Below, piece by piece: positions 2,061 to 10,234 of a stretch of DNA of 10,234 nt. The stretch is from Anaerolineae bacterium (lineage in GTDB: Bacteria > Chloroflexota > Anaerolineae > Aggregatilineales > Phototrophicaceae). The stretch spans positions 1-10,234 of the forward strand of contig JANQRM010000264.1 of NCBI GenBank assembly GCA_028284565.1, in the 5' to 3' direction. The translations under genes were made by a program, and so were the position numbers. Each line of letters opens with the position of its first letter. The first letter of the stretch is position 1. The notes under the pieces were generated by a model. It saw nothing but the letters and a program-made list of their open reading frames with translations. It was not told where the DNA came from and searched no databases.

Positions 2061-3095
2061 ATGCCAGACAATATCGAAACCGTCCGAGACGAGGCGTTAG
2101 GCACACTCGAATCCATCACAGAGGATGAGAAACTACGCGAATGGCGGACACAATACTTGGGCAACAAAGGCCGAATCCGTGAGCTGTTGAGTGCAATTGG
2201 CTCGCTCCCTGCGGAAGAACGCAAGGACTTTGGGCAAGCGGTGAATCAACTCAAAAACCAATTGACGGAAGCCTTTGACGCGCGTGAAAAAGAGATTCAA
2301 AATCAGGCTCTATCACGTGACCTTGAAGAAGGTGACATTGACATCACCCTGCCCGGACGCACACGGACTCGCGGACGCTTGCATCCATCCACGCAAACCC
2401 TGCGCGATTTCTATACCATCTGGGCAGATATGGGCTTTCAGGTCTATCACAGCCGTGATGTGGAAGACGACGATACGAACTTCAAATTGCTCAACTTCCC
2501 AGAACACCATCCGGCGCGGGATATGCAGGACACCTTCTATACCACGCAGGAGAACATCATCTTGCGGACGCATACCTCACCGGGACAGATACGAGCGATG
2601 CAAGAACTCGGCGGTGAGGGACAAAAGCCCATACGCGTGATTCTGCCGGGCATGTGCTATCGCTATGAGCAAATCACTGCACGAAGCGAGATTCAGTTCT
2701 ATCAGGTGGAAGGTTTAGCTGTTGGGCGCAATATCCGCATGAGTGACCTAAAAGGCACAGTCACGGAATTCGCCAAGCGAATGTATGGCGAGAATGCTCA
2801 AGTTCGTTTCCGTGCGTCCTACTTCCCTTTCACGGAGCCGAGCATGGAAATTGATGTGGAATGCTTCCTCTGTGGTGGAGATGGCTGTCGAGTGTGTAAA
2901 TACACGGGTTGGCTAGAAATTGCTGGCAGTGGCATGGTGCATCCGGTGGTCTTGCGAAATGGGGGTTATGACCCAACCGAATGGAGTGGCTTTGCGTTTG
3001 GGATGGGACCAGAGCGCGTGACGATGCTCAAACACGGTATTGAGGACATCCGCTATTTCTGGGGCAATGACCTGCGCTTCTTGAAGCAATTCTAA
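2061..3095 (+). CDS. pheS: Phenylalanine--tRNA ligase alpha subunit
   Basis: PheS (344 residues, usual 327-350) is the catalytic subunit of the cytoplasmic (alpha-beta)2 synthetase that charges tRNA-Phe. The N-terminal ~90 residues are the tRNA-binding coiled-coil arm. The class II core follows: motif 1 around HPSTQTLRDFYTIWADMGF (108-126), HTSPGQIRAM at 171-180, motif 2 with FRASYFPFTEPS (250-261), and motif 3 with GFAFGMGPERVTMLKHGIEDIR (310-331). Ala312 in GFAFG is the position that sets Phe specificity. Cys268, 271, 276 and 279 (CxxC-x4-CxxC) form a zinc-knuckle-like insert also seen in Firmicutes-type PheS and absent from the E. coli form. The ATG at 2061 has GGAG at 2051-2054 with a six-base spacer. 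Expression is under the upstream phenylalanine T-box. The next gene starts two bases after the stop. Confidence 0.98.
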   Translation: MPDNIETVRDEALGTLESITEDEKLREWRTQYLGNKGRIRELLSAIGSLPAEERKDFGQAVNQLKNQLTEAFDAREKEIQNQALSRDLEEGDIDITLPGRTRTRGRLHPSTQTLRDFYTIWADMGFQVYHSRDVEDDDTNFKLLNFPEHHPARDMQDTFYTTQENIILRTHTSPGQIRAMQELGGEGQKPIRVILPGMCYRYEQITARSEIQFYQVEGLAVGRNIRMSDLKGTVTEFAKRMYGENAQVRFRASYFPFTEPSMEIDVECFLCGGDGCRVCKYTGWLEIAGSGMVHPVVLRNGGYDPTEWSGFAFGMGPERVTMLKHGIEDIRYFWGNDLRFLKQF

Positions 3096-3097
3096 TC

Positions 3098-4261
3098 ATG
3101 AAGTCACCGTTGTTGAAACGATTCGCCTCTGGTTATCGGGGAATTGCCATCATGGTGCTGAATACCCTGATATTGCTGATTCTACTAGAAGTGGTGGCAG
3201 GGGCGATTCTGAGTCAGCGTGGGACGACACTCGAACAGGAGATTGAAGTCTTCAAACAGAAGCAACTCAGCTTGTCTTATTATCAGGGGCAGGATTGGGC
3301 GCAGACCTATTGGGATGAACACATGCAGATTGTAGATTTCTGGGATTACCAACCTTATACGGTGTGGCGGACACGCCCGGCCGACGGTGAATTGATGACG
3401 GTGAATCAGAACCGTCGGCGCGTGACACTGGGATCGAATTGTACGGCAGAGACCTATCGTATCTTCGTCTTCGGGGGTTCAACAATGTGGGGCTATGGTT
3501 CACCGGATTGGGGGACGATTCCAGCCTATATACAAGCCCGACTGAATGAGGAAAATAGTAATGCCTGCGTGGTGAATTTAGCGGATGTTGCCTATAACTC
3601 GACGCAAGAGGTGATTCAACTCTTGCTCGAATTGCGGTCGGGGAATGTGCCAGATATGGTGATTTTCTACGATGGTGTGAATGATGTGAGTTCGGCACGA
3701 ATCACAGGTGATGCAACCCAACACCTCTATTTCGAGCAGATTGATGAAGCGGTTGGGGGCAATCTGGCATTTGGGGATGTGAATAGTGCATCATCTCCAT
3801 TACTAGATTTCATTCGGCAGACTGCCGTTGTTCGGCTGATTCGGGACTCATCGACACCTGATGAAACCACCTATGCCGATGTGGATACAGCATTGCTAGC
3901 CGATGAGATTGTGCAGAGTTATCTGGCGAATATGCAAACGGTTGAGGCTTTATCTGATTCGTATGGATTTGAATTTGTCGCGGTGTGGCAACCGATGCTA
4001 TTACTGTCAGAGCGTCCGATAACTGATGAGGAGCAACGCTTTTTATGGGAGATGCCCGGTGGCTTGCCAGAGCTATTCTTTGCGGTCTATCCGCAGATTG
4101 AAGCTGAAGCGGAGGCGAATTCATCGCTGGTTTATCTGGCAGATGCGTTGGATGAAGCAGAGGGAATTTTGTGGATTGATTTTAATCATTTGACCCCGAT
4201 TGGGAATCAGGTGATGGCAGACGCGATATTTGAGTTAATTCAACCTGTAGTCGCTCAGTAA
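3098..4261 (+). CDS. Membrane-anchored SGNH/GDSL-type hydrolase
   Basis: The 387-residue protein has a basic N-terminus and one hydrophobic helix (about residues 15-38), so it is probably anchored with the catalytic domain outside the membrane. SGNH blocks are present: GGST at 126-129 (nucleophile Ser128), YDGVNDV at 191-197 (block III Gly193 and Asn195), and DFNHLTPIGN at 361-370 (Asp361, His364). Block II, usually NxGxxGY, reads NLADVAY (160-166), with Ala where Gly is normal, so the oxyanion hole may differ. Relatives are esterases or acetyl-transfer/deacetylation enzymes acting on glycans or lipids; the substrate here is unknown. The start lies two bases after the pheS stop with no separate ribosome binding site, which suggests translational coupling. 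Being between pheS and pheT places it under the phenylalanine T-box, an unusual setting with no obvious functional link. Confidence 0.85.
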   Translation: MKSPLLKRFASGYRGIAIMVLNTLILLILLEVVAGAILSQRGTTLEQEIEVFKQKQLSLSYYQGQDWAQTYWDEHMQIVDFWDYQPYTVWRTRPADGELMTVNQNRRRVTLGSNCTAETYRIFVFGGSTMWGYGSPDWGTIPAYIQARLNEENSNACVVNLADVAYNSTQEVIQLLLELRSGNVPDMVIFYDGVNDVSSARITGDATQHLYFEQIDEAVGGNLAFGDVNSASSPLLDFIRQTAVVRLIRDSSTPDETTYADVDTALLADEIVQSYLANMQTVEALSDSYGFEFVAVWQPMLLLSERPITDEEQRFLWEMPGGLPELFFAVYPQIEAEAEANSSLVYLADALDEAEGILWIDFNHLTPIGNQVMADAIFELIQPVVAQ

Positions 4262-4285
4262 GGGCGTACAGCTGTACGCCCTTAC
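4258..4285 (+). repeat. 28-bp perfect palindrome, copy 2, between the SGNH gene and pheT
   Basis: All 14 bases GTAAGGGCGTACAG (4258-4271) are mirrored by CTGTACGCCCTTAC (4272-4285). The SGNH stop codon TAA (4259-4261) is inside it. The outer arms match the repeat at 1994-2021. It is followed by AAGAAACTACC rather than a T-run, so it would not work as a canonical intrinsic terminator; an mRNA-stabilising or processing hairpin is possible. Confidence 0.85.
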
Positions 4286-4335
4286 AAGAAACTACCTTTC
4301 CTAAACATCAACATATTCAGGAGTAAGTAACAACA

Positions 4336-6888
4336 ATGAAAATTCCGATTTCATGGCTGAAAGATTTTGTCGAGATTGATATTCCTGTGGAGCAGTTAGC
4401 AGAACGGCTGACTCTAGCGGGATTAGAAGTCGTCAAGTTGCAATACGTCGGTGTGCCACAGCAAGAGGTCGAAGGTGTGCGTGTGCCACCGTCCGATCAT
4501 CTCGTGTGGGACAGAGACAAGATTCTGCTGGGTGCGATTAAAGAAGTGAAACCGCATCCAGATGCTGACCGTCTGGTGCTGGCGATGGTCGATTATGGTG
4601 GGGATGAACTGGAACAATGCGTGACGGGTGCGCCAAATCTCTTTGAATACAAGGGGCAAGGGGAACTCAATCCACCCTTGTGGTCTCCGTTTGCGATGGA
4701 AGGTTCAACCGTATGGGATGGTCATAGTGACAAGCCGAAGTTGATGACACTCAAAGGCAAGAAGCTACGCGGTATCTACAACAAGAGTATGGTCTGTTCA
4801 GAGAAAGAACTCGGCATTTCGGAGGAACATGAAGGCATCATGATATTGGATGCGAAAGACAACTTCGTACCCGGAACACCACTACAAGATGTCTTGGGTG
4901 ATGTGGTGCTGGATTTCGATTTGACTCCAAATTTAGCGCGGTGCTTCAGTGTGCTTGGGATTGCACGCGAGATTGCCGCCTTGCTGAACAAGGAACTCAA
5001 AGAGCCGTCCTATGATTTTCTAGCAGAGGGTGCGCCGATTGAAGGACAAGTTAAGATTGAGATTCATGAGCCGGAATTGAATCCCCGCTTCACATTGACC
5101 TTGCTCAAAAACACCAAAGTGCAAGAGTCACCAGCATGGATGCAACATCGTTTGAAATTGGTGGGGCAACGTCCAATTAACAACGTCGTGGATGTGACAA
5201 ATTACATCACCTTTGAATTGGGACAGCCCTTACATGCCTACGATTATGACAAGTTGGTGAAGCGGGCAGGTGGCAAGACACCGACAATCATCACCAGATT
5301 GCCCAAAAAAGGCGAAAAGCTAGAAACACTGGATGATGTAGATCGTGAATTGGATAACCACAATATCCTTGTCTGTGATACAGCTGGTGTCATCGGCATG
5401 GGGGGTATTATGGGTGGTGCGGATACCGAAATTGCTGATGATAGCACGAATGTCTTGCTGGAAGCGGCGAATTGGAATTTCATCAATGTGCGTCGGAGCA
5501 TGAAATCGCAAAAAATTCATACCGAAGCGGGAACACGGTTCAGCCGGGGCGTTCATCCGTCACAGGCTATTTTGGGTGTGCAACGGGGCATTGAGCTGAT
5601 GCGACAAACCGGTGGCGGACAGATTGCTGAGGGCGTGATTGATGAGTATCCGAATCAACCAGAGCCAGTGACCGTCGAATTGCCCTTGAGCGAAGTGCAT
5701 CGTCTATTGGGGATTGAGATGTCGATACAAACGGTAGCGGAGATACTCAGTCGTTTGCATTTTGATGTGACCTTAGATGGCGAGGGGGTGCGTGTGGTTG
5801 TGCCAGATCATCGGATGGACATCAGCGACGATGCGGTGATTGGGCAAGCGGACTTAATCGAAGAGATTGCACGGGTTTATGGCTATGACAAGATTCCAAA
5901 CACGATTATGGCGGATGAAATGCCACCACAATGGGCAAATGCGACCTTTGAAGCCGAAGAAGAATTGCGCGATTTACTCGTGGGTTTAGGTCTGCAAGAG
6001 ACGATTAGCTATCGATTCACAACACCAGAAGCCGAAGCGATGTTGACACCACAGGGTTTGGTCTCCTCTTTGCCGAAAGCAAGCTATGTGGAGATGGCAA
6101 ATCCGTCATCAGCAGACAAGACGGTGTTGCGACATACCTTGCTGATTAGCTTGCTAGAAAATGCGATGAACAATCAGCGGTTTACACCGCGTCAGCAGAT
6201 TTATGAGATTGGTAAAGTCTATTTTCGTCGGGATGATGCCTTGCCAGATGAACCACGACGATTGGGGATTTTGATGACAGGGGCTGTGGATGAAACCGAT
6301 TGGTTGACAGCGAAGACGGAGCTGGTCGATTTCTATGATTTGAAGGGTGTGGTCGATGGTGTGATGGCTGGCTTGCATCTGGAGAATGTGGAATACAAGC
6401 GGGGGAGTCATTCGTCATTTCATCCGGGCAGGTCGGCTGATGTGCATTTGAATGGTAAGTCTGTGGGGACATTTGGCGAATTGCATCCATTGGTGGCGGG
6501 TACATTCAAGTTGACAGATGCACCGATTTTGGTGGCGGAATTCGATTTGGATGCGTTGTTGAAAGCGATGCCAGAACGACATGATGTGGCTTCGTTGCCG
6601 GTAACACCAGCAATTCTGGAGGATATTGCTTTGATTGTGCGGGAGGATATGCCTGCGTCAGAGGTGGAAGCGATCATCTGGAAGGCGGGGGGTCGGTTGT
6701 TGAAAGCGGTGAATCTGTTCGATGTGTATCGAGGGGATTCGATTCCGACTGGGAAGAAGAGCTTAGCATATAGCTTGACGTATCAGACGGATGATAAGAC
6801 CTTGAAAGATAAAGATGCGGCGAAGGTGCGGAACAAGATCATCGGTGCGGCAAAGCATCAGTTGAATGCGGAAGTCCGAAGCGGATAG
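4336..6888 (+). CDS. pheT: Phenylalanine--tRNA ligase beta subunit
   Basis: PheT (850 residues; E. coli 795, B. subtilis about 804) partners PheS in phenylalanyl-tRNA synthetase and holds the editing site. Order of domains: canonical start MKIPISWLKDFVEIDIP; EMAP/OB-type tRNA-binding domain (about 60-180) with PHPDADRL and KLRGIYNKSMVCSEKELG; B3/B4 editing domain (about 215-410) with QPLHAYD (His300), LLEAANW (Glu376) and TRFSRGVHPS; B5 domain (about 445-520) ending LIEEIARVYGYDKIP; the inactive class II-like core; and the C-terminal FDX-ACB anticodon-binding domain from about 756. Extra length lies partly in the EMAP domain, around residues 105-140 (NPPLWSPFAMEGSTVWDGHS). The only SD-like motif, AGGAG at 4319-4323, is 12 bases from the ATG, longer than ideal. 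An in-frame TAA at 4324-4326 rules out an earlier start. Confidence 0.98.
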   Translation: MKIPISWLKDFVEIDIPVEQLAERLTLAGLEVVKLQYVGVPQQEVEGVRVPPSDHLVWDRDKILLGAIKEVKPHPDADRLVLAMVDYGGDELEQCVTGAPNLFEYKGQGELNPPLWSPFAMEGSTVWDGHSDKPKLMTLKGKKLRGIYNKSMVCSEKELGISEEHEGIMILDAKDNFVPGTPLQDVLGDVVLDFDLTPNLARCFSVLGIAREIAALLNKELKEPSYDFLAEGAPIEGQVKIEIHEPELNPRFTLTLLKNTKVQESPAWMQHRLKLVGQRPINNVVDVTNYITFELGQPLHAYDYDKLVKRAGGKTPTIITRLPKKGEKLETLDDVDRELDNHNILVCDTAGVIGMGGIMGGADTEIADDSTNVLLEAANWNFINVRRSMKSQKIHTEAGTRFSRGVHPSQAILGVQRGIELMRQTGGGQIAEGVIDEYPNQPEPVTVELPLSEVHRLLGIEMSIQTVAEILSRLHFDVTLDGEGVRVVVPDHRMDISDDAVIGQADLIEEIARVYGYDKIPNTIMADEMPPQWANATFEAEEELRDLLVGLGLQETISYRFTTPEAEAMLTPQGLVSSLPKASYVEMANPSSADKTVLRHTLLISLLENAMNNQRFTPRQQIYEIGKVYFRRDDALPDEPRRLGILMTGAVDETDWLTAKTELVDFYDLKGVVDGVMAGLHLENVEYKRGSHSSFHPGRSADVHLNGKSVGTFGELHPLVAGTFKLTDAPILVAEFDLDALLKAMPERHDVASLPVTPAILEDIALIVREDMPASEVEAIIWKAGGRLLKAVNLFDVYRGDSIPTGKKSLAYSLTYQTDDKTLKDKDAAKVRNKIIGAAKHQLNAEVRSG

Positions 6889-7098: not shown

Positions 7099-7108
7099 AT
7101 CTATTGAA
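7099..7108. repeat. Left copy of probable target-site duplication
   Basis: ATCTATTGAA here and ATCTCTTGAA at 9630-9639 differ at one base and lie directly outside the two ends of the inverted repeats. IS1595-family elements usually make 8-bp duplications, so the true duplication may be a subset, with the ends set a base or two differently. Confidence 0.6.
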
Positions 7109-7144
7109 TTATCCCCTTATTGCAGGTAAATTATCTGCTATACT
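7109..7144 (+). repeat. Left terminal inverted repeat
   Basis: This segment starts TTATCCCC, continues through GCAGGTAA and ends with TATACT. Aligned without gaps to the reverse complement of 9594-9629 it matches at 26 of 36 positions, 17 of the first 21. Confidence 0.7.
7136..7144 (+). promoter_or_regulatory. Extended -10 promoter for the transposase, inside the left repeat
   Basis: TGC directly precedes TATACT (7139-7144), an extended -10 box pointing into the transposase gene, with the start codon 33 bases further on. No good -35 box is visible at 17 or 18 bases. The inverted-repeat origin of TATACT means it also occurs at the right end. Confidence 0.5.
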
Positions 7145-7162
7145 AAGATTAGGAAAGTAATC

Positions 7163-7173
7163 ATGTAGGTAAT
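7163..7173 (+). repeat. Subterminal copy of the inverted-repeat core
   Basis: ATGTAGGTAAT here is identical to the reverse complement of 9607-9617 in the right terminal repeat, and is closer to it than the corresponding part of the left terminal repeat (TTGCAGGTAAA at 7120-7130). It overlaps the ribosome binding region of the transposase. It could be a second transposase binding site. Confidence 0.5.
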
Positions 7174-7176
7174 GAC

Positions 7177-8101
7177 ATGACAAGTAAGCCTAGTAAGCAA
7201 CAAAAATCACAAAAGCTTGCCTATACACTGAAAGATTTCATGAAGGATTTTCCTGATGATAAAGCATGTCTTGAGTGGCTTAAGAACCGTCTTTATCCAA
7301 AAGGCATCCATTGTAAACAGTGTGGCAAAGTGACATCGCACTACCTTATCGAGAGTCGTAAATCCTACTCTTGTCAAGAATGCGGTCATCATGTCCATCC
7401 GACTGCCAACACAATTTTCCACAAATCCCGCACACCCCTCACGATCTGGTTCTATACAATCTTCCAGATGGCACTAACACGCGGGGGAATTTCTGCTAAG
7501 CAAATCGAGCGAGAAACAAGTGTAACTTACAAAACCGCATGGCGTATGTGCAAACTCATCCGTAGTCGCCTTAATGAAGATGGTGATGTCTTTGGAGGCA
7601 GAGATGATGACGGCAACAGTAAAGACAATGAAATTGAAGAAATCTATGTTGGAGCTGAGCCTCGTAAAATGCGATGAACCCTGTAAACATTGACGTAGCA
7701 CAACAAAAACAATTGGTCGGTGTGGAGGAGCACAAGAGTCTTATCAAGGCTGTTGTTCCTGATACCAAGAAGAAAACATTGACACCAATTATCGTATCGA
7801 CTGTTGAGAAGGGTTCAAACGTTCACACCGATGAGTACCCTACAACTATTGACCGATATGGGTTATAAACATTGCATATCTTGCATCAGATGAAACTCAA
7901 CGTGATAGGCAACGTTCACACGCAAACAATTGAAGGTCTTTGGCATTAGTCTAGACATGCATCATCGGTATTTATTATGGTTGTAGCAAAAAGTATCTCC
8001 AAAGCTATATCAATGAATATGCTTTCAGATACCATCATCGTAACGATATAGCACCTATGTTTAAGACATTTCTTTACTGGATGGCTGAGGTTTTGGGCTA
8101 G
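7177..8101 (+). pseudogene. Broken IS1595-family transposase
   Basis: The first segment (7177-7677, 166 residues) has the IS1595 zinc ribbon (Cys46, Cys49, Cys66, Cys69), then TANTIFHKSRTPLTIWFY and a helix-turn-helix with GGISAKQIERETSVTYKTAWRM (103-124). The family DDE core should follow with a VDETYxGG-like motif, but the reading is EIEEIYVGAEPRKM and then a stop, so the first catalytic Asp appears lost. The protein continues in another frame from about 7680 (LIKAVVPDTKKKTLTPIIVSTVEKG, VHTDEYP). It passes through LLTDMGYKHC in the first frame, returns for NVHTQTIEGLW (7911-7943) before an in-frame TAG, and ends in the third frame with GIYYGCSKKYLQSYINEYAFRYHHRND down to the stop at 8099-8101. 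At least three frame changes and several stops make it inactive. Its last 41 bases overlap the converging small cargo gene. Confidence 0.93.
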
Positions 8102-8261
8102 TCACATTAGTCAAAATATCGAAAAACAGTTCCTGCGTAAGAGTTCCCTCATCTTTACGTTCAAACTCACTGCTGTCTAAGTTGGGGAAATACTCTTTTA
8201 GAAATTCTGGATGCGTGTACTTTCGCGTCGTTTTAGCGATTTGTTGCTTTTTGTTGTCCAT
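8061..8261 (-). CDS. Small protein of unknown function, partner of the Ntn-hydrolase-like gene
   Basis: A 66-residue, charged, soluble-looking protein with no signal peptide or membrane segment. The N-terminus is basic (MDNKKQQIAKTTRKY); the middle HPEFLKEYFPNLDSSEFERKDEGTLTQELFFDILTNVT looks like a compact helical unit; the tail SPKPQPSSKEMS is antisense to the end of the transposase and may be accidental read-through into it. The start ATG (8259-8261) has AAGGA seven to eight bases upstream, a proper ribosome binding site. The stop of the upstream cargo gene is only 15 bases away, so the two form an operon. I do not recognise the family. Its fixed place next to a proteasome-like protein suggests a regulator, substrate tag or adaptor, but that is only inference. 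Confidence 0.65.
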   Translation of the reverse strand: MDNKKQQIAKTTRKYTHPEFLKEYFPNLDSSEFERKDEGTLTQELFFDILTNVTSPKPQPSSKEMS

Positions 8262-8276
8262 CTTACTATCCTTAAA

Positions 8277-9560
8277 TTAATTGTCGAAAAAATGATAGTT
8301 AATATCTGCATCAAAATAATGTTTCCGCTTAATCCACACGAAGCCATCTTTCTTTGAGATTACCGCAACATCAGTTGGTCCCCCGACAGTCTCTTTAACA
8401 TCTGATACACGCCTCATGTATGAAGTGGTGTTTACCAATGTCTCAGCCATGAGTGCCAATTCGTCCTTAGGTAATCCTTGAACTATATCCATTATAGGCG
8501 TAACGTATTGATTTCGCATTAGTTTTTTAAGTTCTTGGATAATTTGTATAATATTTCCTTCTGCAAGTTGAGATGCTTGTTTGTCAATGTCTGTTGAAGA
8601 TTGAGCTGAGTTCTGTTGCAGTACTTGCTTGTAGGTATTTGTCAGTTCACTGAGTGCAACATCTGTCAATCCTTCCCAAGCATATTGATGCACCCCTGAT
8701 ACAACCATATTTATTATGTCGCTTTGTGCAAATGGGAAAATACCAGAAAATTGTGAGGCTGTTTGATATTGTTGCTCTTTATATTTTAAGGTATCTGCTA
8801 AATAGCTCTCAAAGTAATATTCTGAAAATGATGAGTATATTTCATCTTCTCCATAACCAGCAACACAGACACCAGAAAATTGCCCAAAAAACCACCAATC
8901 TTTTTTGAACCAATTTATACACGTTTCCCACAGTTTATTCTTGTACTCTGCTTCCAACCCCTTTTGCTCAACAATGCCTAGAATATTTTGAAATTGTGTT
9001 TCAAAAGTTTGACGATATCTCTTTTCCATAGATAGGGTTATTTCATTTACTTTATTATTATCGAATAATTCCTGAGGCGTGTTCCACTGATCATAAATGT
9101 TATCAATTGTTGTACGCACTATTTTAAGAATCTCATCGTCTGATATAGGCTTTGCATTTTGGAGTATATATCTCTCGACTTCACGGCTGACGGCAATGCC
9201 GATGTCATTTTTTAAGAAAGAATTAAGCAACGATTCAAAAACCGAATCCTGATAATCCATTGGAAAAAACAATGCGTGATTGTCTCTCAAAAATTGTACA
9301 AGATTAATGCCATAATCTCTCAACTCTCCAAATCGCTTGGTATTTGTAACTAAATAGTCACGATAGGATTTAATTATCAATTCCCACGATTTACCCATTA
9401 GAAGAGCATTATTGTATATAAGTATTCCCACAGGATATTTAGGCGCGAGCATATACAACTTATTTGCTGAGTTAAAAATTTTGCCACTTTGAAAAGTCAC
9501 AGCACTGTCAGTAGCTAATGCAATAGCCCCTTGATTCATAATAATTACTTCTGCGGTCAT
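8277..9560 (-). CDS. Proteasome-beta-like Ntn-hydrolase family protein, uncharacterised (transposon cargo)
   Basis: The start chosen is the ATG at 9560-9558, with GGAG (9570-9567) six bases upstream; a TTG four codons earlier overlaps that site and is rejected. The 427-residue protein begins MTAEVIIMNQGAIALATDSAVT and continues to SANKLYML and VGILIYNNALLMG. After removal of Met, which is expected because Thr follows, the residues Thr1, Asp17 and Lys33 fall exactly where proteasome beta subunits keep their catalytic residues. The C-terminus (GGPTDVAVISKKDGFVWIKRKHYF) resembles the last strands of that fold. The ~315 residues between (about 60-375), including WWFFGQFSGVCVAGYGEDEIY (222-242), make it nearly twice the length of a beta subunit. 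No signal peptide or membrane helix is seen, so it should be cytoplasmic. It is probably a threonine peptidase or amidase; the substrate is unknown. I recall similar hypothetical proteins in other bacteria but could not check. Confidence 0.8.
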   Translation of the reverse strand: MTAEVIIMNQGAIALATDSAVTFQSGKIFNSANKLYMLAPKYPVGILIYNNALLMGKSWELIIKSYRDYLVTNTKRFGELRDYGINLVQFLRDNHALFFPMDYQDSVFESLLNSFLKNDIGIAVSREVERYILQNAKPISDDEILKIVRTTIDNIYDQWNTPQELFDNNKVNEITLSMEKRYRQTFETQFQNILGIVEQKGLEAEYKNKLWETCINWFKKDWWFFGQFSGVCVAGYGEDEIYSSFSEYYFESYLADTLKYKEQQYQTASQFSGIFPFAQSDIINMVVSGVHQYAWEGLTDVALSELTNTYKQVLQQNSAQSSTDIDKQASQLAEGNIIQIIQELKKLMRNQYVTPIMDIVQGLPKDELALMAETLVNTTSYMRRVSDVKETVGGPTDVAVISKKDGFVWIKRKHYFDADINYHFFDN

Positions 9561-9593
9561 ATCACACTCCAATTAAATTATTGCTATAATTGA

Positions 9594-9622
9594 AGTATAT
9601 ATGCCTAATTACCTACATTCAA
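9594..9622 (-). promoter_or_regulatory. Promoter of the cargo operon, inside the right terminal repeat
   Basis: On the minus strand TTGAAT (9622-9617) and TATACT (9599-9594) are 17 bases apart, giving 4/6 and 5/6 matches to the sigma70 consensus. Transcription would start near 9587, leaving a leader of about 27 bases with the GGAG site. The promoter lies wholly inside the inverted repeat, so the cargo carries its own promoter wherever the element lands. Confidence 0.65.
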
Positions 9623-9629
9623 GGGATAA
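9594..9629 (-). repeat. Right terminal inverted repeat
   Basis: Read on the minus strand from 9629 it starts TTATCCCTTG, contains ATGTAGGTAAT and ends with TATACT. It pairs with 7109-7144 at 26 of 36 positions. Confidence 0.7.
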
Positions 9630-9639
9630 ATCTCTTGAA
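9630..9639. repeat. Right copy of probable target-site duplication
   Basis: ATCTCTTGAA matches 9 of 10 bases of ATCTATTGAA at 7099-7108, on the other side of the element. Two more T bases follow in both places, but at the left they belong to the inverted repeat. Confidence 0.6.
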
Positions 9640-9980
9640 TTTTTCATCGAATAGACAAATTACAACGGCTTTGTCTAAATGTCCGATAAGGTCTTGCATC
9701 TGGTTATCCTCATCTGTTTGCACTAATGGAATATGACCTAATTATCATGCTGTCGACTGAGGAATATATCGACACGGAGAATTCTCAAACATTATCTGTC
9801 ACGACGACGAATTCATTGGTGCTACCCTTCTGGCATCAGTATAGCAGGTAACTATGGGATACGATGCTCATGTGAAAACAGAAGCAAATCGTGCGTTTGT
9901 CCTATTGATGGTATGATGTTTATGCGATGTTGATGTTGTTGGTTTAGACTGAGTTGACACAATTCAGCAAGGATGCTGAG
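9640..9980. other. Intergenic stretch without a recognisable gene
   Basis: No reading frame in this 341-base stretch has both a plausible start and convincing protein sequence. The only structure seen is an 8-bp hairpin (9652-9659 with 9670-9677, 10-base loop) with no T-run. The last bases hold the ribosome binding site of the next gene (AAGGA at 9969-9973). Promoter elements for that gene must lie here, but only an isolated TTGACA at 9954-9959 was seen, with no -10 box at the right distance. Confidence 0.6.
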
Positions 9981-10234
9981 ATGGATAGCACGCTCCAAAA
10001 TGTGTTGCTGTGTTTGTGCGGAATCGGCGCGGTGTTTCTGCTGGTTTTGGCGTATGTGTGGTATTTCATGTTTGGGAAGTCATTCCGACGCTTGGTGGTG
10101 GCGTTGGCGGGCGCGTTTATCAATCGGGATGACCGCATAGACCTCGAAAAGTTGGATGAAGCGACACAAGTGGATATTCGTCCCGAAGAGATGAAAGCAG
10201 AATTGGATTGGCAGGCGGATCAGGTCAATTTTGA
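9981..10234 (+). CDS. Single-pass membrane protein, unrecognised (3' end outside the window)
   Basis: The frame is open from the ATG at 9981 to the window edge, 84 codons. AAGGA at 9969-9973, seven bases before the ATG, is a good ribosome binding site and fixes the start; an in-frame TAG at 9945-9947 limits any extension. The N-terminus MDSTLQNVLLCLCGIGAVFLLVLAYVWYFMFGKS contains one membrane helix (about residues 7-31). It is followed by basic FRRLVVALAGAFINRDDR and then a soluble acidic stretch (IDLEKLDEATQVDIRPEEMKAELDWQADQVNF). The short outside part and the basic residues after the helix suggest the C-terminal part is cytoplasmic. I do not recognise the family. It appears to be the first gene of a unit to the right of the transposon. 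Confidence 0.7.
   Translation, partial: MDSTLQNVLLCLCGIGAVFLLVLAYVWYFMFGKSFRRLVVALAGAFINRDDRIDLEKLDEATQVDIRPEEMKAELDWQADQVNF

Follow-up and report, generated by a model that had tools for sequence, protein, structure and literature searches.

A decayed IS1595-family element next to pheT in an Anaerolineae contig, with a putative proteasome-like hydrolase and a small partner gene as cargo

To the right of pheT (4336–6888, identified from its translation) in contig JANQRM010000264.1 of an Anaerolineae bacterium (assembly GCA_028284565.1), an IS1595-type transposase gene faces two genes of the opposite strand. Does this arrangement represent a transposable element with passengers of its own, or the remnant of an insertion sequence (IS) that came to lie beside resident genes? 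The whole stretch of DNA that was analysed, called here the window, covers 10,234 nt. Its segment 7109–9629 is a decayed passenger-bearing element of the IS1595 family, whose passengers occupy the space from the transposase gene to the right end. The G+C content of this segment is 37.5%, versus 49.6% leftward and 44.4% rightward. Its cargo consists of two open minus-strand genes (8277–9560 and 8061–8261), 15 nt apart, which are read leftwards, away from the right end, and are thus convergent to the transposase gene. As the original prediction had proposed from the letters alone, they encode a protein resembling N-terminal nucleophile (Ntn) hydrolases and a small partner of 66 aa.

The element is bordered by imperfect terminal inverted repeats, 7109–7144 on the plus strand and 9594–9629 on the minus strand. 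They pair without gaps at 25 of 36 positions, not the 26 counted originally, and no other inverted match of this 36-mer in the window is as good, the runner-up attaining 21. In 500 Markov-1 resamplings of 7146–10234, the best inverted match was 24 (once) and 25 was never reached. A profile of a 14-nt core, built on 21 ends from other genomes, ranks 7110 (+) first (15.1) and 9628 (−) second (14.7) among all sites of the window, the two being inverted relative to each other, with a third site at 10.7. The best site of 100 resampled windows attained the first of these scores in 3 runs and the second in 6; since so short a profile reaches such scores by itself, the weight rests on the inverted pairing. 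The true left tip may lie up to 5 nt further left. A search of 154 genomes with the end pattern TATCCCTTGACTGTAGGTAA, allowing up to 2 mismatches, gave matches in 2 of them versus 1 for the reversed control.

The 10-mers that flank the repeats, ATCTATTGAA (7099–7108) and ATCTCTTGAA (9630–9639), are alike at 9 of 10 positions (about 3e-5 per trial), so that the near-duplication noticed earlier is real. Its reading as a target duplication, possible but unproven, is not retained here, because the 10-mers are mispositioned with respect to the ends of intact relatives, in which six bases lie outside TATCCC and the duplications are of 8 bp, and because the right copy also lies within a hairpin with the right end. 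This hairpin with a T run (9617–9640, ATTCAAG..CTTGAAT) is made of the right end and its flank.

The transposase gene has decayed unevenly. Its N-terminal half, a zinc ribbon and a helix-turn-helix, is an open reading frame (ORF) of 166 codons without stops or frameshifts (7177–7677, plus strand), which matches Zn_ribbon_IS1595 (PF12760) at E 2.6e-9 with 37.3 bits for a cut-off of 25.4. The catalytic (DDE) half (7674–8103, plus strand) reaches only 26.3 bits with DDE_Tnp_IS1595 (PF12762), on 7674–7868, just below the cut-off of 27. When aligned in a frameshift-aware manner to the full-length transposase of a related genome (G355), it shows 2 stops and 7 frameshifts over 167 catalytic residues, versus none over 117 N-terminal residues; with the transposase of another relative (L277) as reference, 1 stop and 5 frameshifts are counted. 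Therefore, the transposon described as dead in the original prediction has a transposase that is wrecked in its catalytic half, but whose DNA-binding half is open. Three other genomes share this state: only the DNA-binding half is open in the window, G407, G024 and G504 (166, 121, 132 and 152 codons, respectively). The half found in the window is 74% identical in amino acids to that of G407 and 76% to that of G024, and the first and second codon positions differ by 0.14–0.21 per site versus 0.59 for the third. This pattern shows purifying selection in the history of the transposase halves. It is no proof that selection on the DNA-binding half went on once the catalytic half was lost, although the uneven spread of lesions in the window hints at this. 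The retained half may still bind the ends, acting as a repressor or letting the element be mobilised in trans. The remnant of G407 is matched by 1049 proteins resembling a transposase half, in a search whose length limit left out full-length ones.

The same composite is found again in G407. One contig of this genome (L254) carries, in the order and orientation of the window, a left end, the transposase N-terminal half, a 64-aa partner (48% identical to that of the window) and, with 43% identity, the enzyme's C-terminal part. Another one (L255) stops shortly past the first 96 residues of the enzyme (66%), and the DNA match with the window continues from there through the right end. We read these contigs, which are not joined, as one probable G407 element interrupted by another insertion. 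Thus, cargo within ends recurs with the same transposase, split on two contigs. The intact copies that the original prediction hoped to find are represented by this one, which has the transposase, cargo and ends expected but is broken. Among the 20 closest pheT loci (62–68% identical and so too distant to align an empty site base by base; 1.5 kb of flank), none carries an Ntn gene, an IS1595 transposase or a homologue of the downstream ORF of the window, and other genes are found downstream of pheT; cargo genes at the same site without repeats and transposase, the situation that would have spoken against the prediction, were therefore not seen there. In the order of the best pheT match, a related transposase occurs in 11 of 154 genomes (E 1e-15) and a relative of the Ntn protein in 5 of 154 (E 1e-10). 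Two pairs of relatives of the enzyme and of the transposase half have longest contigs of equal length (P0016 and P0177, 7153; P0107 and P0163, 3144), maybe one contig each, maybe by chance.

Sister elements indicate that the passenger slot is real and that its contents vary, since they hold different genes inside exact duplications. The genome searches for this lineage covered one phylum, apparently Chloroflexota, and some protein matches are named from other phyla. G355 harbours three identical 1.9-kb copies encoding a full-length transposase and a convergent 324-aa passenger of unknown function; all have 8-bp duplications, one found by scan and two read by eye. At E 1e-30, a related transposase was detected in 15 of 340 genomes, including G407, G024 and G355, and 13 loci were fetched from the other 12. 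At 10 of these 13 loci (not at L281, L282 and L288), full-length transposases lie between ends that match at 18–23/24, are spaced 1.4 to 3.0 kb and are flanked by exact 8-bp duplications, the chance-like second matches of the scan being at 14–16/24 with 7/8. A scan of 16 loci with flanks of about 1.5 kb had found only the G355 element; larger flanks revealed exact 8-bp duplications at 7 of 15 more distant loci (ends 19–24/24, 2.5–4.6 kb apart), the others having none or a chance-like 14/24 with 7/8. These seven distant IS1595 elements (L241, L244, L245, L246, L248, L253 and L258) probably carry passengers too, given their length and exact duplications. The G407 copy, with the same transposase and cargo pair and similar ends, and the ten relatives with exact duplications bear out the proposal that the segment is a passenger-bearing IS1595 element.

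A Pfam scan of ten cargo proteins of the lineage recognised NYN and Trypsin_2 (L276), HicB-like and DUF6941 (L280) and Proteasome (L282), five proteins remaining without a name. The protein of L282 (genome G733, 2611–3291, minus strand) is of a second proteasome-like kind (226 aa, PF00227 at E 4.3e-7); its gene is convergent to a full-length transposase of the lineage, with a small ORF between them whose product resembles the C-terminus of the window partner, and ends were not found there. In G504 (L256, about 4020–6051), an end is followed by a gene for a ClpP-like SDH protease, a 91-aa ORF, a small ORF with a similar C-terminus and a transposase N-terminal half oriented like the cargo; no right end was recognised by eye at this locus. 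In G024 (L201, 6095–7668), the transposase half abuts a convergent RhuM-family gene whose product has such a C-terminus too, and the contig stops before the right end.

The larger cargo gene (8277–9560, minus strand) encodes a 427-aa protein which, according to its structure model, is shown as a proteasome-like Ntn hydrolase of PMI-4 architecture. Its predicted fold and its Thr1, Asp17 and Lys33 agree with those of solved structures, and these residues are conserved in 158 (T2), 158 (D18) and 160 (K34) of 161 aligned sequences. A profile comparison with the beta chain of 1pma gave E 0.0025 over only 19 positions, unrelated Cullin-3 chains giving 0.011. In the model, helices 101–219 and 292–362 form insertions after H1/H2 and between H3/H4, a layout that PMI-3 has too (PMC8665760). 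From end to end, the enzyme matches PHROG 5990, a family of phage proteins (E 8.1e-91). About 4000 proteins match it at E 0.01, with a very wide spread in bacteria and archaea, and its occurrence is patchy (one class has relatives in 13 of 396 genomes at E 1e-3, and one order, as given above, in 5 of 154). A scan of genome contigs with the single protein gave no match to close relatives, and an alignment-based one did find relatives; Foldseek against viral models returned nothing significant (best E 0.16). Between the window and G407, the cargo differs by 0.44, 0.31 and 0.63 per site at codon positions 1, 2 and 3 over 334 codons, and by 0.28, 0.17 and 0.64 over 94 codons, which indicates purifying selection.

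The second cargo gene (8061–8261, minus strand) encodes the 66-aa partner, which has a motif of FFP type near its N-terminus. Like the C-terminal tail described below, it was an unexpected part of this element. Small downstream genes were surveyed at 160 loci with relatives of the enzyme, 80 from genomes and 80 viral, partly redundant (the best of 436 and 143, respectively). An ORF of 40–90 aa begins within 40 nt after the enzyme stop at 113 of the 153 loci with room for it (59 of 77 genome loci), whereas only 129 of the 615 other long genes at these loci are followed by one in this way. A profile seeded on one of the downstream proteins gathered 42 loci and, in its first round, the window partner (E 3.3e-4, among the 163 small ORFs there). 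When rebuilt from the 42 proteins without the window, it strongly matched at least 8 further loci. In an alignment of 25 partner sequences, the sole invariant column is the proline of F-F-P. The window partner can thus be taken as a putative divergent member of this group, accepted on position and motif, its homology being weak by score alone. Some small downstream ORFs at other loci have no detectable similarity to it. At the phage-type loci L105–L155, several unrelated-looking types of small downstream protein are seen repeatedly, some with ELREWQKxFNPS and others with SLQQVVxNAYKxLAAA, so that more than one partner class may exist.

The last ~35 residues of the partner (8061–8177, minus strand; LT..LFF..L..V..P.P) resemble the C-termini of the G407 partner and of otherwise unrelated cargo proteins of sister elements, namely the RhuM protein of G024, the passenger of G355 and the product of the small G504 ORF. 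As this likeness was first spotted by eye, leave-one-out tests matter. Among about 53,000 six-frame ORFs, profiles built without the sequence in question found the window tail at E 0.028 (best unrelated ORF 3.9), that of G407 at 4e-6 (1.4) and that of G504 at 0.03 (1.5); G024 tied with the best unrelated ORF (0.12 vs 0.11) and G355 (3.3) ranked below it (0.78). In 2173 ORFs of the 13 fetched loci, none of which had been used for the profile, the top matches, up to E 0.34, fall in L277, L278, L276, L282, L279 and L281. All six lie on the minus strand; five adjoin the 3' end of the transposase gene and one is 951 nt off, behind the NYN gene. The match in L280 (E 2.0) is doubtful, and none of comparable rank falls in L283–L288. 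The tail hence belongs to part of the transposon lineage, as its matches are confined to some of the 13 loci. That the tail merely results from antisense reading of the 3' end of the transposase gene was considered and found unlikely: the tail of L276 lies 951 nt away behind another gene, G407 and G504 show no catalytic half that aligns, and the RhuM gene of G024 starts within 4 nt of the end of the short transposase ORF. If the tail is functional, one transposon lineage would be labelling cargo proteins of unrelated kinds, which would be unusual.

The ends may also contribute to expression. An inward sigma-70-like pair with at least 10 of 12 consensus bases is present in 11 of 27 ends (8 of 14 left, 3 of 13 right), versus 7 of 1200 random 65-mers, and five of the 27 have no acceptable pair. 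The right end of the window contains a promoter-like site, TTGAAT-17-TATACT (9594–9622, minus strand), a match to the consensus only (9 of 12 bases), which points into the cargo operon; a plain promoter scan of the window region showed no excess (9 found vs 9.2 expected). Inward promoters in many, mostly left, ends would let an insertion bring its own transcription, the right end of the window being a weaker match. On a broader and rather doubtful view, this IS1595 lineage would be an exchangeable cargo chassis: ends that bear promoters, a DNA-binding half kept after catalytic loss, and diverse cargo (two proteasome-like kinds, ClpP-like, trypsin-like, NYN, RhuM and HicB-like), the last protein of which bears or is followed by a common short C-terminal peptide that marks the cargo for one joint purpose, for instance to bind the same factor. 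The enzyme and partner of the window would then be a mobile protease system controlled by its partner.

Taken as a whole, the locus can be viewed as follows. Removal of the initiator methionine would expose the catalytic threonine without any propeptide, the large helical insertions would keep the enzyme in a non-canonical assembly, and the partner would dock through its FFP motif, either restraining the enzyme or delivering substrate to it. The pair would act in conflicts between mobile elements and their hosts, by defence, superinfection exclusion or addiction. To this explanation in full, a decayed IS1595 passenger transposon with a partnered proteasome-like enzyme and a conflict role, we give a probability of roughly 0.7. 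Several observations weigh against it. No other PMI-4-like locus (0/160) has an IS1595 transposase in the fetched flanks, so that the association with a transposon is, as far as seen, confined to this lineage. The G407 copy is broken and spread over two contigs, and the target duplication of the window is not clean, for the reasons of position and hairpin given above. The profile of 42 proteins without the window finds the window partner only at E 0.065, which is why this protein was called divergent, and the G407 partner at 0.59 (16,615 ORFs); a search with the window partner alone gives nothing at E 0.01, and its structure model has low confidence (pLDDT 67.7). Finally, neither cargo protein matches a PADLOC family at E 1, and the Pfam families of 100 near neighbours are mainly housekeeping (among the 25 listed out of 130 families). 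The 0/160 and the imperfect duplication would suit a short IS1595 remnant that lies by chance beside an unrelated resident Ntn operon, with a coincidental right end. This is highly improbable: the recurrence of the composite in G407 argues strongly against it, the right end is second in the window for a profile of foreign ends, sister elements hold genes at the same place inside exact 8-bp duplications, and the partner tail is common to other cargo of the lineage.

As to function, a hydrolase controlled by its partner and related to conflicts is tentatively the most likely one, at less than even odds, quality control coming next; whether the role would be defence or addiction is a guess. Five phage records were inspected out of 13 with a match. 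In these, the PMI-4-like genes lie between lysis genes and those for an antiterminator or a methylase, next to a holin gene, within a group of head genes, at a prophage end or in a Streptococcus satellite, positions that suit accessory cargo; a conflict role would account for their presence in prophages, satellite phages and this transposon. In a Providencia phage (L222, 2406–5475), a DNA adenine methylase gene is followed by the PMI-4-like gene and, downstream of it, by an ORF of 58 aa, immediately ahead of the lysis genes. It is possible, if somewhat unlikely, that the pair serves protein quality control or metabolism and is carried incidentally, as its very wide spread, the housekeeping neighbours and the lack of a PADLOC match would have it; its patchy occurrence and accessory positions in prophages and satellites speak against this, as do PADLOC family matches near the enzyme genes (151 for near vs 19 for distant genes; 100 proteins each, out of 276 near and 242 far ones), which come from redundant models, are not independent and are not decisive. 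The defence models among the neighbours include Hachiman, Avs, DISARM-type and type IIG. A toxin-antitoxin system, in which the hydrolase would be the toxin and the small protein its inhibitor, the pair serving to stabilise the transposon or phage on which it resides, is a weaker candidate: the two genes are closely spaced and the second is small and fast-changing, a sister element encodes a HicB-like protein and the satellite phage Javan421 has a RelBE-type pair near its PMI-4-like gene, but an antitoxin gene usually precedes the toxin gene and the partner comes second here. Improbable as well, and more so, is a specific protein ligase or processing enzyme of connectase type that would act on the partner or on tail-bearing proteins. 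PMC8665760 mentions a monomeric ligase among the proteasome-like homologues and PMI insertions that may block ring assembly, and unrelated cargo proteins do have a common C-terminal peptide; against this reading, some elements with the tail have no detected Ntn hydrolase among their cargo.

Passenger-bearing IS1595 elements as such are already known, and the cargo pair and lineage described here are a variant of them. In the titles and abstracts of open PMC articles, subscription literature aside, no description of this element, its partner or the tail was found. With the IS1595 family, for which PMC8101967 describes 8-bp duplications, the element shares a Zn_ribbon_IS1595 and a decayed DDE_Tnp_IS1595 domain, inverted ends and, in its relatives, such duplications; it differs by a cargo convergent to the transposase gene and by a copy without intact catalytic half or clean duplication. 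Closest in principle are tISCpe8, a lincomycin resistance element, and MTnSag1, which PMC5704250 presents as mobilisable IS1595-family elements with passenger genes. Like these, the element has an IS1595-type transposase and passengers between inverted ends; its cargo is instead a proteasome-like enzyme with a partner, and its sister elements hold other cargo.

The enzyme itself shares with the beta subunit of the 20S proteasome and HslV its fold (checked on solved structures), an N-terminal threonine after the methionine, and the equivalents of Asp17 and Lys33; it differs by ~200 extra residues of helical insertions and by its lack of a propeptide, the threonine directly following the initiator methionine, the comparison with HslV being that of the 2021 paper. 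With PHROG 5990 it has in common the full-length match, that family being from phages and without assigned function. PMI-4, as presented by Fuchs, Alva and Lupas (2021, PMC8665760; cited by PMC13022661), occurs in bacteria, euryarchaea and phages, in genomic contexts reported there as uninformative, and has the same proteasome-like core with Thr/Asp/Lys, a long insertion that follows H1/H2 and a further one that separates H3 from H4. The window enzyme, assigned to this class by architecture and not by sequence clustering, differs by its small downstream gene and its transposon carrier; the recurrence of such a downstream gene and the carriage by a transposon, prophages and satellites provide experimental handles on the PMI-4 class.

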